In this document: piece by piece, positions 8,772 through 29,813 of the stretch
Layout of the letters: each line of letters starts with the position of its first letter
How positions within the stretch are numbered: the first letter of the stretch is position 1
NCBI GenBank assembly: GCA_003671075.1
Contig: QWPT01000001.1
Coordinates: 130,744-163,498 of the forward strand
Source of the DNA: Planctomycetota bacterium
Lineage (GTDB): Bacteria; Planctomycetota; Phycisphaerae; Phycisphaerales; SM1A02
Reading direction: 5' to 3'
Length of the DNA: 32,755 bases
Notes under the pieces: model-generated
What the model saw: only the letters and a program-made list of their open reading frames with translations
The model's database searches: none
What the model was told of the DNA's origin: nothing
Made by a program: the position numbers and the translations under genes

Positions 8772-8815
8772 CTTGAATTGATTCGACTCGCGGGTGCGAA
8801 GTCGGATCATCTGAC

Positions 8816-8857
8816 ACTGACGCAAGCACTGACGCAAGCACTGACGCAAGCACTGAC
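8816..8857. repeat. 12-bp tandem repeat, 3.5 copies
   Basis: Three exact copies of ACTGACGCAAGC plus a half copy lie in the 3' untranslated part of the PEP-CTERM transcript. It looks like a simple minisatellite. Confidence 0.85.
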
Positions 8858-16790: not shown

Positions 16791-16864
16791 CCCAAAACTT
16801 CTCAAAAGTTCTAAGGCTCCCCAAGGCTCACCAAGGCTTCCCAAGGTTTCCCAAGGTTCCCAAG
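16791..16864. repeat. Decameric direct-repeat array in the sigma leader
   Basis: Seven consecutive 10-bp units with consensus CCAAGGCTTC (first two diverged) end 18 bases before the sigma start codon on the minus strand. The exact 10-bp period places each copy on the same face of the helix. It may be a protein-binding array or a simple repeat. Confidence 0.7.
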
Positions 16865-24769: not shown

Positions 24770-25426
24770 CTATCTCGCCGCGTCGACCAACGCCCGTATC
24801 ACTCTAAGTCCAGTTTCGTCCGACTCCGTGCGTTCGGGATGCCACTGCACGCCGATGTAGAAGCGTCGCTTGGGATCGATGATCGCCTCGATCACGCCGT
24901 CGTCGGAGCGCGCGATGATCTCAAAACCATTCGCTTCGGCGAGCGCTTGGTGATGCCACGAGCGCACCGCACCCGATGCGAGCGGCGATCCACGCGAGGC
25001 GTCGACGGAGTGCACCGCGTCGTTGCGATGGCGGTCGGCGTTGGGCAGCACATCGGCAAGATGCTGAATCATCGCGTTTCCGCGGTGAAAGCCCATCATT
25101 TGCATGCCGAGGCAGACGCCGAGCACGGGCTTGTCGGGGCGCGCGTCGAGTTCCTTAAGCAGCGCGAACTCCGCGTCCTGGCGTTCGGGCGCCATGCACT
25201 CGGCCTTCGGATGCAGCGGCACGCCGAACTTCGAGACATCGATGTCGCTGCCGCCAGTCATGATCACGCCGTCGACGCGGTCGAGCATCGCGGCGCACAG
25301 TTCGGCGCGCGGCGGAAGAATCACAGGGATCCCGCCCGCAGCCTCGACCATATCGAGATAAGTGTGGCGAACACGCGCGTAGCCGTCGACGAAATCTGCG
25401 GAGAGACCGATGAGTGGGCGTTTCAT
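24770..25426 (-). CDS. Class-I glutamine amidotransferase-like hydrolase (peptidase C26 type)
   Basis: The ATG at 25426 overlaps the eboB stop as ATGA and gives a 218-residue protein starting MKRPLIGLSADF. The pattern is that of gamma-glutamyl-gamma-aminobutyrate hydrolases (PuuD-like): GGIPVILPP, VDGVIMTGGSDID, LGVCLGMQMM with the nucleophilic Cys, WHHQ, and the His-Glu pair in GVQWHPERTE. All three catalytic residues are visible. Such enzymes cleave gamma-glutamyl amides. Coupling to eboB ties it to the ebo pathway; the substrate is unknown. Confidence 0.88.
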   Translation of the reverse strand: MKRPLIGLSADFVDGYARVRHTYLDMVEAAGGIPVILPPRAELCAAMLDRVDGVIMTGGSDIDVSKFGVPLHPKAECMAPERQDAEFALLKELDARPDKPVLGVCLGMQMMGFHRGNAMIQHLADVLPNADRHRNDAVHSVDASRGSPLASGAVRSWHHQALAEANGFEIIARSDDGVIEAIIDPKRRFYIGVQWHPERTESDETGLRVIRALVDAAR

Positions 25427-26223
25427 GCGATGCGGAACCTTCCGGATTGCGAGAGGAATTGGAGCGGATTGTCGAAGCTGACCTTGCGCACGCTTTCGAG
25501 CGTGTGGCCGCGGGCCTTCATTTCGATCTGCGTCTTGGGCACGGCAAGCGGATCGCTCTGGCCCCAGTCGCCCGCAGAGTTGATCCACAGGCGCTCGGTG
25601 CCGTGCATCTCAAAGATGTCGACGGCGCGCTGCGGCGTGCACTTGGTGTCGGGATACAGCGTCATTCCCGCCCAAAATCCACGGTCCAGCACATGGCGAA
25701 CCGTGTGCTCCTCGACATGATCGATGAGCACACGCGACGGGTCGAGCCGCGCGTGGTTGCGGATCGCGTCCATGATGAGCTTCGTGCCCTTGAGCTTGTC
25801 CTCAAGGTGCGGAGTGTGCACGAGCACAAGCAAATTGTGCTCAGCGGCGAGGGTGAGGTGCGCGTCAAGGATCTCGAGCTCGTTGCGCGAATTCTTGTTC
25901 AGTCCGATCTCGCCGATGCCAAGCACGCTCTCGCACTTGAGGAACTGCGGGATGAGCTTGATGACTTCCTTCGCGAAGACCGGATCCTCGGCTTCCTTCG
26001 GATTGATGCACAGCCATGTATGGTGGCGGATCCCATACTGCGCCGCGCGCTTGGGCTCGAAGTCAGTGAGCTGGCGAAAGTAGTCAAAAAAGCCCTGCGG
26101 CGAGCTGCGGTCGTAGCCCGCCCAAAACGCCGGCTCAGTAATCGCGACGCATCCCGCGAGCGCCATGCGCTGATAGTCATCAGTCGTGCGACTCACCATG
26201 TGAACATGCGGATCGATGTACAT
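25423..26223 (-). CDS. eboB: EboB, TatD-family metal-dependent hydrolase
   Basis: The ATG at 26223 gives a 266-residue protein beginning MYIDPHVHMVSRTTDD; an in-frame GTG at 26235 would add four residues. TatD/TIM-barrel metal ligands are visible: HxH (H6, H8), Glu in GIGEIGLNKN, His in LVHTPH, His in VLIDHVEEH and Asp in INSAGDWG. EboB proteins are the TatD members of ebo clusters. The first nine codons are exactly repeated upstream in three micro-ORFs, so the present start is the last of four copies. The stop overlaps the amidotransferase start. Confidence 0.88.
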   Translation of the reverse strand: MYIDPHVHMVSRTTDDYQRMALAGCVAITEPAFWAGYDRSSPQGFFDYFRQLTDFEPKRAAQYGIRHHTWLCINPKEAEDPVFAKEVIKLIPQFLKCESVLGIGEIGLNKNSRNELEILDAHLTLAAEHNLLVLVHTPHLEDKLKGTKLIMDAIRNHARLDPSRVLIDHVEEHTVRHVLDRGFWAGMTLYPDTKCTPQRAVDIFEMHGTERLWINSAGDWGQSDPLAVPKTQIEMKARGHTLESVRKVSFDNPLQFLSQSGRFRIA

Positions 26224-26224
26224 G

Positions 26225-26326
26225 TCAGTTGCCACCCTTCACGTCGCAGCCACCAGAACGACGAGCGGACGAAGTCCGATTGGAGTGCTCAAACCCCGGC
26301 ATGTGAACATGCGGATCGATGTACAT
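26225..26326 (-). CDS. Micro-ORF 3 (33 codons) directly before eboB
   Basis: It starts with the same nine codons as eboB (MYIDPHVHM), continues PGFEHSNRTSSARR and then a Gly/Lys-rich end, and stops with TGA one base before the eboB ATG. A GAAGGGTGG-like site precedes the eboB start inside its last codons. It may be translated as a leader peptide or only as a coupling device. Confidence 0.5.
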   Translation of the reverse strand: MYIDPHVHMPGFEHSNRTSSARRSGGCDVKGGN

Positions 26327-26327
26327 G

Positions 26328-26429
26328 TCAGTTGCCACCCTTCACATTACCGTCACCAGAGCGACGAGCGGACGAAGTCCGATTGGAGCGCTCAAACCCC
26401 GGCATGTGAACATGCGGATCGATGTACAT
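26328..26429 (-). CDS. Micro-ORF 2 (33 codons)
   Basis: This is a tandem copy of micro-ORF 3, beginning MYIDPHVHM, then PGFERSNRTSSARR and SGDGNVKGGN, and ending TGA-C-ATG onto micro-ORF 3. Translation is possible through coupling but unproven. Confidence 0.5.
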   Translation of the reverse strand: MYIDPHVHMPGFERSNRTSSARRSGDGNVKGGN

Positions 26430-26430
26430 G

Positions 26431-26610
26431 TCAGTTGCCACCCTTCACATTACCGTCACCAGAGCGACGAGCGGACGAAGTCCGATTGGAGCGCTCAAAC
26501 ACGTGACGAGCGGACGAAGTCCGATTGGAGTGCTCAAACACGCGACGAGCGGACGAAGTCCGATTGGAGCCCTCAAACCCCGGCATGTGAACATGCGGAT
26601 CGATGTACAT
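26431..26610 (-). CDS. Micro-ORF 1 (59 codons) with 13-residue repeats
   Basis: Its ATG shares a base with the stop of the upstream small gene (TGATG). It begins with MYIDPHVHM and carries three copies of a 13-14 residue segment (core SNRTSSAR) because the 39-bp DNA repeat is a multiple of three, and it ends TGA-C-ATG onto micro-ORF 2. The start-over-stop junction suggests that eboB originally began here. Confidence 0.5.
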   Translation of the reverse strand: MYIDPHVHMPGFEGSNRTSSARRVFEHSNRTSSARHVFERSNRTSSARRSGDGNVKGGN

Positions 26611-26903
26611 CAGACGCCTCCCATTGCGCCGGTTGCGCCCTTGGTGGAGGCTTTCGCGATTGGTTCGGTTGTGTGATCGCTGAGTAGTTCAAGCACGCGG
26701 CGTGCGCGTTCTGGCTTTCCATCGAGGAGAACACGGCAGCATGCTTCCAGCGCTTTCACGCGAAAGTCGTCGGCTCCGTCTCCTTGCGCGCGATCGACGC
26801 GGTCGAAGAAGGCGGCGAGGTCGATCGCTTTTGCTCGATGCTCGAGGAAATAGCGATCGACGACGGCGCGCTTGGTGATCGGTGGCGGCGTGCTGCTGGG
26901 CAT
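26610..26903 (-). CDS. Small protein between eboD and eboB
   Basis: This 97-residue protein starts at the ATG at 26903, with an AGGA-type site nine bases upstream (26912 is an alternative start). It is mostly helical: VVDRYFLEHRAKAIDLAAFF, DRVDRAQ, DFRVKALEACCRVLL, RARRVLELLSDHTTEP, followed by a Gly/Ala tail. No catalytic motif is seen and I do not recognise the family. It occupies a place where eboA might be expected but is much shorter than the EboA proteins I know, so I do not call it EboA. It lies 27 bp after eboD and overlaps the micro-ORF array. Confidence 0.7.
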   Translation of the reverse strand: MPSSTPPPITKRAVVDRYFLEHRAKAIDLAAFFDRVDRAQGDGADDFRVKALEACCRVLLDGKPERARRVLELLSDHTTEPIAKASTKGATGAMGGV

Positions 26904-26930
26904 GGGGCGCATCCTACGCGGCAGAGGTCG

Positions 26931-28112
26931 CTACGCGAGTTCGGTGGCGGCGGCGCGCACGAGTGTGGTGTCGAGCTCGTGGATCTCGACACCTCGACCG
27001 ATTCCTCTGAGCATGGTGATGGTCAGCGTTCCGCCGAGATGCTCGCGAAATTCGTCGAGACCGCGCAGAAGCGCGTCTTGGTCGGCGAAAAGCGGGTGGT
27101 GCGTCGGAAGTCCGAGTCGCTTGATGCAGGCGCAGATGCGGGCGTAATCGGCGTCACTGAGCCAGCCTTCAGCCTTCGAGTTCATCAGATTTGAATAGCG
27201 GCAGTCCAGCAGAAGTCCGAGCGCGACGGCATCACCGTGCGAAATCGCGTAGCCGCTCATCGACTCGAGTCGATGCGCGGCCCAGTGACCGAAATCAAGC
27301 GGGCGCGCGGCGTTGCTTTCGAATGGATCACCGCCGTCAGCGATGTGGCGTAGATGCAATTCGGCGCTGCGACGAATGACTGGACTGGCGGCATCGAGAT
27401 TACGCGCAGCGATTCGCTCGGCGTTTTGCTCGATTTCGGCGAAGAACATCGGATCCTTGAGCAGCGCGATCTTGACCGCTTCACTGAAACCGGCGCGAAA
27501 CACGGCATCGGGAAGGGTTTCAAGGAGGAGCTCGTCGCAGAGGACCGCGAAGGGAACGGCGAAGGCGCCGACGAAATTCTTCTTTCCGAAGCGGTTTATG
27601 CCGTTTTTCACGCCCATCGCCGCGTCGTCTTGCGCGAGCACGGTCGTGGGGAGACGGACCAGACGGACGCCGCGATGGGCGATGGCGCTTCCAAAGCCGA
27701 CAGCGTCAAGCATCGCGCCGCCACCAATGGCGATGACGAAACTCTTGCGGCAAATGCGGTGTTTCTCCACCAGTTCGACGACGAGGTCGCAGAGGCGCGT
27801 GTCTTGCTTCACCGCCTCGCCGCCGGGCACCACGCAAATTTCCGCGATCACGGGCATCGAGGTCGCGTGGGCTGCGAAGTACGCGCGCAACTTCGTCTCG
27901 AGCGCATCGCCGTACGCACGGGCGACACCGTCGTCGATCAGGACGACTGCGCGTCGAGTTGCGATGGCTTCGTCTGCGGCAAACAGATTGCGTAACGCCG
28001 GATTTGCCGCGTCGAACGCTCCACGGGTGAAGCGCACGCGATGCGAAAACTTGGGTAGCACCGTGCTGTCGAGCAGCAGTGTGTGGTGGGAATCGGTCGG
28101 GGGCGTGACCAC
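26931..28112 (-). CDS. eboD: EboD, 3-dehydroquinate-synthase-like protein
   Basis: With the GTG at 28112 it has 393 residues and an N-terminal length close to other EboD proteins; a TTG at 28157 is possible, but it lies in the T-run of a terminator. DHQ-synthase motifs are present: IAIGGGAMLDAVGF (NAD-binding), RLPTTVLAQDDAAMGVKNGIN, and metal ligands Glu in GFSEAVK, His in DFGHWAAHRLE and His in SHGDAVALG. It is therefore likely active as a sugar-phosphate cyclase-type enzyme. It is the first gene of the minus-strand ebo series. Involvement in making a carbocyclic intermediate is possible but unproven. Confidence 0.85.
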   Translation of the reverse strand: MVTPPTDSHHTLLLDSTVLPKFSHRVRFTRGAFDAANPALRNLFAADEAIATRRAVVLIDDGVARAYGDALETKLRAYFAAHATSMPVIAEICVVPGGEAVKQDTRLCDLVVELVEKHRICRKSFVIAIGGGAMLDAVGFGSAIAHRGVRLVRLPTTVLAQDDAAMGVKNGINRFGKKNFVGAFAVPFAVLCDELLLETLPDAVFRAGFSEAVKIALLKDPMFFAEIEQNAERIAARNLDAASPVIRRSAELHLRHIADGGDPFESNAARPLDFGHWAAHRLESMSGYAISHGDAVALGLLLDCRYSNLMNSKAEGWLSDADYARICACIKRLGLPTHHPLFADQDALLRGLDEFREHLGGTLTITMLRGIGRGVEIHELDTTLVRAAATELA

Positions 28113-28271: not shown

Positions 28272-29813
28272 TTAGCGGCGGGTATCGGACGAGGTCGGTG
28301 CGGCGCGGATCAGCACGAATCTGGATTGGCCTTGGCGCTCGACCAACGCGGGAACCGCTGCGTCTGCCGCAATTTCTTTGAGCGCGGATTGCGCCTGCTT
28401 CAGCGTGTGCACGGTGTGGGCACCGAGGCGGCGGATCAGATCGCCGGGCGCGATTCCCGCATCGGCAGCGGGGCTGTTGGCGTTGACGCTTTCGACGAGA
28501 ACGGCGCCTGTTTCCGCGCCCGAATTCGCCGCGGGGCCCATATTCGCCGCAGCGCCCATATTCGCCGCGGCGCCTAGGGCCGCGAGTTCGTCCGCACTGA
28601 TTTCGCGCAGCACCATTCCAAGTTTCACCGAAGCCGAGCTCGGTTTGGCGGCCGAGTTTCGCTCGGCTAGCGGAGCGCTGCCATCGGGTCGTTCCGCAAG
28701 CGTCGCACGCATCCGTCGCTCGTCGCTGTTGCGGATTGCGCGAAGGTCCACTTCACTTCCGGGAGCGATTTCGCTGATGGTCGCAACCAGTTCGCCCGGG
28801 GTGTGGACCGAGCGCCCTGCGATGCTGGTGATGAGGTCTCCGGGCTCGATTCCTGCTTTGGCCGCAGGTGAATCGCTCTCGACTCGATTCACGAGCACTC
28901 CCACGCCCGCGTCCTTGGCGATACCGAGTCCCGCGAGCATTTTTGCGTCGGCGGGTTGCACGCCAATGCCGAGATATCCGCGCGCCACTCGTCCGGTGGC
29001 GATGATCGAATCGGCCACGCGGCGAACCACCGAGCTCGGCACTGCGAAGCCGATACCGTCGTTTCCACCGCCACGGCTGGATATGGCCGAGTTGATGCCA
29101 ATGACGGCGCCATCAAGGTTGGCAAGCGGTCCGCCCGAGTTGCCAGGATTGATGGCGGCGTCAGTTTGAATGTAGCTTTCGAAGGTTGCCAGGCCGACAT
29201 CGCTGCGCCCCTTGGCGCTCACGATTCCTGCGGTGACGGTGCGCTCAAGTCCGAAGGGCGCGCCGATTGCGACGACCCACTCACCGGGCTCGAGCTCGTC
29301 GCTGTCGGCGAAACCAGCTGGAATCAGGCCGCTTTCTTCAGTTCGAAGCACGGCGATGTCGGTTCCCGGATCAAGTCCAACCACAGTTGCCTTGGCGGAT
29401 CGGCCGTCGTGAAGAACGAGTTCGATTTCATCGGCGTCGGCGACAACATGGTTCGCCGTGACGATGTAGCCGTCGCGCGAAATCACCACGCCGGTTCCGG
29501 TTCCATGCTGCGCGCGCCCACGATCGTTGAGTTTCGCCGAGCTGGTGTTGATGGTCACCACGCTTGGCGCAAGCGTTTTGGCGGCGTCACGGAACGCATG
29601 AGAAAGTTCGTCGGCGAGGCGGCGTGCAGTGGATTTACCAGCGGTTTGCGTGGTGTTCACCGCGCGCGCCACCCCGTCGGTCGAAGGCGCGAGCGCCAGT
29701 GTCAGTGCCATTGCCGGCGTAGCAGTGAGCATGGCGCATGCGCCGATGATGGCGAGAAAGTGAGTCTGCTGGAGCGAGTTGGTTGCTGTGATCGAGCGAG
29801 TGAGATGCTTCAT
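28272..29813 (-). CDS. HtrA/DegP-family periplasmic serine protease
   Basis: This 513-residue protein has a signal peptide (to about residue 36, ATPAMA), a trypsin-like domain with triad H122 (TANHVV), D152 (TDIAVL) and S226 (GNSGGPL), and two PDZ domains (GYLGIGVQP...GVLVNRVESDSPAAKAGIEPGDLI; GAVLVESVNANSPAADAGIAPGDLI). All catalytic residues are present. It probably degrades or refolds damaged envelope proteins. An Ala-Asn-Met-Gly repeat of three 18-bp units joins the PDZ domains. AAAGGA precedes the ATG. Confidence 0.92.
   Translation of the reverse strand: MKHLTRSITATNSLQQTHFLAIIGACAMLTATPAMALTLALAPSTDGVARAVNTTQTAGKSTARRLADELSHAFRDAAKTLAPSVVTINTSSAKLNDRGRAQHGTGTGVVISRDGYIVTANHVVADADEIELVLHDGRSAKATVVGLDPGTDIAVLRTEESGLIPAGFADSDELEPGEWVVAIGAPFGLERTVTAGIVSAKGRSDVGLATFESYIQTDAAINPGNSGGPLANLDGAVIGINSAISSRGGGNDGIGFAVPSSVVRRVADSIIATGRVARGYLGIGVQPADAKMLAGLGIAKDAGVGVLVNRVESDSPAAKAGIEPGDLITSIAGRSVHTPGELVATISEIAPGSEVDLRAIRNSDERRMRATLAERPDGSAPLAERNSAAKPSSASVKLGMVLREISADELAALGAAANMGAAANMGPAANSGAETGAVLVESVNANSPAADAGIAPGDLIRRLGAHTVHTLKQAQSALKEIAADAAVPALVERQGQSRFVLIRAAPTSSDTRR
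28519..28572. repeat. 18-bp x3 in-frame repeat in the protease gene
   Basis: Three 18-bp units (the last two differ by one base) encode the AANMGA-type linker between the PDZ domains. The length keeps the reading frame. Confidence 0.85.

Follow-up and report, generated by a model that had tools for sequence, protein, structure and literature searches.

Stop-restart micro-ORFs carrying a dispersed palindromic repeat at the small gene-eboB junction of a planctomycete genus

Termination-reinitiation, in which ribosomes that end one gene restart at the next, was nearly abolished when about 20 nt separated the genes of the pairs studied in H. volcanii and E. coli (PMC10666635), and synthetic nonsense ORFs placed upstream of a gene gave a boost of up to 20-fold in the constructs described in PMC13255528. 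Short ORFs that bear repetitive extragenic palindromes (REPs) were excluded as plausibly spurious in the account given in PMC3733652, and the class-3 Y1 transposases of planctomycetes are described in PMC6006769 as flanked by atypical structures. Here, we analyzed a stretch of 32,755 nucleotides from a Planctomycetota genome (hereafter the window, meaning the whole stretch at its full length), in which a palindromic repeat, short ORFs, and closely spaced stop and start codons occur together in front of eboB, which encodes a TatD-type hydrolase.

A previous sequence-only reading of the window had described a chain of micro-ORFs ahead of eboB, and the anatomy of this chain is correct to the base. 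Specifically, ATGTACATCGATCCGCATGTTCACATG (minus-strand reading), which comprises the first 27 nt, or nine codons, of eboB, is present four times (26584-26610, 26403-26429, 26300-26326, and 26197-26223). The codon counts of the three micro-ORFs were likewise as proposed (coordinates in Table 1); all are on the minus strand, have 59, 33, and 33 codons, and end in TGA-C-ATG, the last leading into eboB. The upstream small gene ends in a TGA that overlaps the ATG of micro-ORF 1 (TGATG), again as had been read, so that the stop/start gaps along the chain are -1, +1, +1, and +1 nt, each pair overlapping or adjoining as in genes coupled by termination-reinitiation. Purine-rich, Shine-Dalgarno-like letters precede each restart, with GGAGG ahead of micro-ORF 1. 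Chance is ruled out as the source of tandem repeats with such length and identity, and micro-ORF 1 is longer than the others because of a nested 39-bp tandem repeat inside it.

Table 1. Coordinates of features at the small gene-eboB junction, numbered from the first letter of the window.
Feature	Position	Strand	Remarks
Upstream small gene, 100 aa, ebo cluster	26610..26912	-	TGA overlaps micro-ORF 1 ATG
Micro-ORF 1, 59 codons	26431..26610	-	three hairpin units, 39-nt spacing
Micro-ORF 2, 33 codons	26328..26429	-	one hairpin unit
Micro-ORF 3, 33 codons	26225..26326	-	one hairpin unit; TGA-C-ATG into eboB
eboB, TatD-type hydrolase, 266 aa	25423..26223	-	homologue in 103/151 genomes searched, own included
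Tandem array, period 103, 3.0 copies	26197..26500	-	TRF: 96% matches, score 559
Nested tandem array, period 39, 2.9 copies	26464..26578	-	TRF: score 209
Palindromic element copy (model R1), in micro-ORF 3	26251..26293	-	genome 156994-157036
Palindromic element copy (model R1), in micro-ORF 2	26354..26396	-	genome 157097-157139
Palindromic element copy (model R1), in micro-ORF 1	26457..26499	-	genome 157200-157242
Palindromic element copy (model R1), in micro-ORF 1	26496..26538	-	genome 157239-157281
Palindromic element copy (model R1), in micro-ORF 1	26539..26577	-	genome 157282-157320

Other tandem repeats in the window were an error-free twelve-base unit, CACTGACGCAAG, present 3.6 times at 8815-8857, a ten-base AAGGCTTCCC-like unit present 5.3 times at 16813-16864, and an eighteen-base unit present 3.3 times at 28516-28574, inside an HtrA/DegP-like protease gene (28272-29813, minus strand).

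The junction was assigned to an ebo cluster because an EboE (NF035939, 392 bits) and an EboD-type synthase (PRK06203, 481 bits), both above cut-off, were located nearby, along with an EboC-like gene that at 97 bits stays below its cut-off. The product of the upstream small gene had no match in Pfam or NCBIfam. The EboA model NF035938 found no match in the window's genome, a weak result in that control matches were absent everywhere as well. We noted that many genomes of the family encode, between the EboD-type gene and eboB, a conserved protein of about 100 aa (DRYFLEHRAK...PIAK..TKGATGA; window 26610-26912, minus strand). EboA has been suggested to aid formation of an EboC-EboA-EboB complex, as put forward in PMC6282210. 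Such a complex could be a reason for coupling to matter in ebo genes, the small gene here being at most a candidate EboA.

Among 16 genomes of the genus, 13 had an EboB junction, one (G010) had the start of an insert before a run of Ns, and two (G003 and G014) had neither. An insert between the small gene and eboB was present in 10 of the 14 informative genomes (G000, which is the window's genome, G012, G011, G002, G008, G006, G005, G004, G013, and G010), nine of them with a complete insert and G010 with an incomplete one. The other four (G001, G007, G009, and G015) had no insert, and their stop/start gap was -1 or +1 nt, which argues that close coupling is the ancestral layout. Relatives carry homologous sequence at the junction and not the unrelated sequence that would have spoken against the chain. 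The earlier suggestion of a recent expansion stands for the extra amplification in the window's genome (103 bp, three times; 39 bp, three times) and fails for the insert as such, which is genus-wide. A restart ATG lies at the upstream stop in 8 of the 9 complete inserts (the overlap is longer in G012), and in seven of the nine an open micro-ORF of 26-85 codons is coupled-like at both ends, being -1/+1 nt from the eboB ATG. G013 has a single unit of the window's type, MSIDPHVHMPWFERSNRPSAARRSGAQVQKVKH followed by TGACATG, and G005 has a coupled-like micro-ORF without a hairpin. The micro-ORF of G011 stops 13 nt early, whereas in G002, a close relative of G011, the frame continues to the usual TGA; in G004 the restart ATG is lost and the insert decayed, leaving a 102-nt gap, and its sister G007 (100% in all three trees) has no insert. 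No element was seen at the junctions of other genera among those listed. The genus's junction was also found in JASGCF010000126.1 (L055, titled Limnohabitans) and in L057 (titled Candidatus Kuenenia), titles that look mislabelled unless the bins are mixed.

The make-up of the inserts can be read as a front, a middle, and a back. The front is the eboB start, exact over 14-27 nt in five of the nine and with one substitution in 27 in G013; this copy is absent from G012 and G005 and altered in G004. The middle is TTTGAGCGCTC-hairpin-CGCTCTGGTG, and the back is a copy of the upstream gene's tail, together with its stop and restart. The tail of the window's micro-ORF matches the upstream gene of G004 at 14 of 18 nt, a best-of-13 value equalled in 0.04% of 5000 shuffles. 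Ungapped tail matches within the same genome range from 14/18 (G005) down to 6/18 (G008 and G012), so that the copy appears to be old or, in places, conversion-prone. The chain had been ascribed to duplication of the eboB start, and while the start copies are real, the unit also holds the tail copy and a dispersed palindrome; the presence of both in the homologous unit of relatives rules out an eboB-start expansion as the whole story.

The palindrome belongs to a REP-like repeat class of about 40 nt, detected by a covariance model (R1) and by the pattern TGAGCGCTC-N(5-32)-CGCTYTGG, which is dispersed in the genus and in a few other genera of the family. At E 0.01, R1 had matches in 24 of the 181 family genomes. 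The pattern was found in 14 of the 16 genus genomes, with 52 copies in G002, 39 in G006, 35 in G011, 31 in G004, 16 each in G003 and G010, and six or fewer in the others, including three in the window's genome, two of which are at this locus; the pattern read backward as a control gave two matches in the whole genus. Across the order it was present in 28 of 400 genomes, outside the genus in G044 (40), G038 (10), G073 (4), and G042 (3), and several of the single matches look like chance. The outer GAGCG/CGCTY stem is common to the class, while the inner arms differ and usually still pair: for the 21 variants that were typed, which include three from this locus, the inner hairpin had a mean of -8.2 kcal/mol, versus -3.5 kcal/mol for shuffles, with a shuffle fraction above 0.05 in seven of the 21. 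Copies elsewhere are often in tandem too, and 19 of 44 element contexts were inside a predicted ORF, as called by a crude and unreliable ORF caller. An array of the class with a 73-bp period, five model matches, and a different inner hairpin was located in G012 (L083, C13:14800-17000, positions 986-1321), and tens of copies with covarying inner stems, some directly after a stop codon, were present in G044 (L085-L087 and L101) and G038 (L088, L089, and L102).

A pattern allowing three mismatches matched only this junction, in 9 of the 16 genus genomes; in a wider contig scan it matched eight contigs, all corresponding by length to the same genus contigs, and it had no match in viral contigs. 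An RNA motif limited to the locus was overturned by R1 and the open-ended pattern, which exposed dispersed kin with other inner hairpins. Mobilisation by a RAYT was unsupported, as no element was present at the 8 Y1_Tnp places examined of 28 in the genus, with a flank of about 1 kb or less.

Within three mismatches, the inner hairpin subtype of the junction had no match at any other place in the genus, which favors one old, vertically inherited insertion, and a 39-nt doubling common to G000, G012, and G008 agrees with this. These three genomes formed a 100% clade in the tree of codon positions 1+2, had 64% in the codon tree, and did not group in the protein tree. Because the three reconstructions conflict on the backbone, the case for a single origin followed by losses is made by shared architecture and not by the tree. 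The absence from G007 is consistent with a clean loss between the flanking repeats, separate gains being the alternative.

We favor, at roughly even chances, an explanation in which the micro-ORF would act as a ferry, taking re-initiating ribosomes over the inserted palindrome and so keeping the small gene and eboB coupled. A palindrome of the class, with its outer GAGCG/CGCTY stem and variable inner hairpin, sits in the touching junction, flanked by duplicated junction pieces: the first eboB codons are in front of it, and the upstream tail with stop and restart follows it. Because stop-restart signals bound the insert at both ends, it reads as a micro-ORF from the upstream stop to the eboB start. 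Under this proposal, ribosomes ending the upstream gene could restart, translate through the hairpin, stop beside the eboB ATG, and restart again. The translated micro-ORF would thereby bridge an insert that otherwise separates the two genes by about 80 nt or more; untranslated, such an insert would be expected to uncouple eboB, given the near loss of coupling at gaps of about 20 nt in the pairs of PMC10666635. In the window's genome, the unit is amplified into three such micro-ORFs. The proposal draws on observed features, namely the anatomy, the homology across the genus, the membership of a dispersed repeat class, the compensatory stem changes described below, and the frame kept in seven of nine complete inserts, whereas translation, coupling, and selection for coupling are inferred.

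The main rival, which we consider possible and place close behind, is a neutral by-product: slippage or template switching would have duplicated the junction along with the repeat, the frames and coupling-like ends would be unselected, and the instability of the palindrome would drive tandem growth. Several observations suit it. Any head-to-tail copy of the 103-bp unit keeps the stop-restart spacing, because 33x3 + 3 + 1 = 103, and the spacing within this genome therefore counts as one fact and not three; coupling-like spacing is real here, and the earlier argument for coupling selection from a unit that is not a multiple of three has no weight alone. The tandem habit of dispersed copies, the decay in G004, and the empty junction of G007 point the same way. 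Also in its favor is the small number of independent frame events: hairpin units of the same micro-ORF are spaced by 39 and 39 (G000), 39 (G012), 39 (G008), and 54 and 54 nt (G006); all six spacings are multiples of three and may represent about three independent events given common ancestry. Such in-frame internal spacings are nevertheless confined to this locus, as 13 of 37 spacings between neighbouring dispersed copies were multiples of three among the matches listed for six genomes. The stronger point against neutrality is the seven of nine complete inserts that are open and coupled-like at both ends despite differing lengths and make-up, and it is these relatives' inserts of other lengths, still in frame, that indirectly suggest a constraint on coupling better than the 103-bp unit does. 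Among 73 element contexts, some of them overlapping, four were coupled-like at both ends; three were this locus in relatives, so that only one (L108) was elsewhere, which we count against the ferry. Moreover, the 102-nt gap of G004, the early stop of G011, and the insert-free G007 speak against a strict need for coupling. The exclusion of short REP-bearing ORFs in PMC3733652 is a further caution for the ferry.

A less probable alternative, and one we would call doubtful, is that the hairpin itself does the work, as an RNA element of the operon that acts by stabilising or cutting the mRNA or by tuning re-initiation, comparable to REPs or to the ribosome termination structures of PMC7518266, with the micro-ORF incidental. 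The stem of the junction hairpin has changed in a compensatory manner: variants were CGGCC/GGCCG, CGGAC/GTCCG (window), CGGGC/GCCCG (G010), and CAGCC/GGCTG (G006), and G008 has an extra C-G pair. In a set of 14 rows (17 copies less three that repeat a kept row, with several rows per genome), two pairs had changed on both sides (seven cells) and zero cells on one side only. None of 500 shuffles reached the covariation score, the paired-cell share, or the number of both-side-changed cells, while 111 of 500 reached the number of both-side-changed pairs and 282 of 500 the number of pair types; the counted signal is carried by about three lineages. The hairpin core was also conserved, with fourfold sites identical in 184 of 192 comparisons versus 1870 of 2887 in eboB, across 28 non-independent genome pairs in which the core offers 5-9 such sites per pair. 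The outer and inner stems of the 43-nt unit were present in the predicted fold of eight variants, and the folding of eight whole elements surpassed that of dinucleotide shuffles by only a modest margin (z -0.6 to -2.3), a point that also counts against the ferry. Folding of the whole array was no better than that of shuffles (z 0.23), and a whole-array RNA structure was dropped. Counting against a working hairpin are the coupled-like micro-ORF without a hairpin in G005 and the four congeners without an insert. Dispersed copies with other inner arms usually pair too, which a palindrome-keeping mutation process or mobility would equally explain. A search of Rfam with window positions 25300-27000, up to E 1, had no match, and a known RNA family was rejected.

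A peptide with its own function, to which the open frame and a FERSNRPSAARRSG-like core common to many congeners might point, is very improbable, since the compensatory changes alter residues (RTSS, RPSA, QPSA, RASP) while pairing is kept, tails and lengths vary widely, and four congeners have no insert. The TatD HxH motif that had been pointed out in the repeated MYIDPHVHM looks incidental; HVHM occurs in the micro-ORF only in G000 and G013 among ten inserts, and a functional metal motif there was rejected on this ground. An assembly artefact as the source of the copy number is just as hard to credit, for while tandem repeats are error-prone in draft assemblies, the units differ by substitutions, the contig is 184 kb, and nine other genus genomes have homologous single or multiple units at the same junction.

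Returning to the ferry, a broader and more tentative proposal is that a mobile-like palindrome in a zero-length junction may be domesticated by the operon through duplication of the stop-restart signal on either side. The micro-ORF would only carry ribosomes, selection would act on frame and coupling and not on the peptide, and tandem growth would be tolerated while the chain is unbroken. If the ferry is true, it shows a route by which tightly coupled genes survive the insertion of a repeat, and one by which tiny translated ORFs that lack a peptide function can emerge and be kept throughout a genus, which bears on how small ORFs from ribosome profiling are read. The junctions of the genus would then offer tests of coupling a natural range of lengths and of states, from intact through near-intact and decayed to absent.

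Within open-licence literature in PubMed Central, we found neither this repeat nor REP-linked stop-restart micro-ORFs described, and earlier descriptions are possible outside that scope. Like the REPs of the GTAG and CGTC superfamilies as described in PMC3733652, the class is short, palindromic, dispersed, and in some cases clustered, and some REPs are inside ORFs. It lacks the constant GTAG tag at the stem foot that defines the GTAG superfamily: of 28 copies listed from other genera, 12 have GTAG ahead of the stem or running into it, and among the genus copies listed none was noticed with GTAG at that position. At the locus itself, CCA precedes the hairpin and CGTC follows it, a tag pair that the dispersed genus copies listed do not show. 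In the CGTC REP family, these tags stand in the reverse order. Unlike RAYT-mobilised REPs, the class had no transposase link at the Y1_Tnp places described above. The repeat is thus REP-like in a broad sense, being a palindromic unit with many dispersed copies (but only three in the window's genome), and does not fit cleanly into either published superfamily.

The Rickettsia palindromic elements described in PMC3733652 are likewise palindromic repeats read in frame as protein-coding sequence; they are located inside existing ORFs, whereas the repeat here is in a gene junction with its own stop-restart micro-ORF. The stops and starts overlap by one base or are one base apart, as in termination-reinitiation coupling at TGATG/ATGA junctions (PMC10666635; PMC6728339), but here two to four successive restarts would pass through short ORFs that carry a repeat. 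Finally, the synthetic nonsense-ORF boosters of PMC13255528 resemble the micro-ORFs in being short, without peptide function, directly upstream of a gene, and provided with a ribosome-binding site by the stop; those were engineered in E. coli, whereas the micro-ORFs in front of eboB are natural and carry a palindromic repeat.
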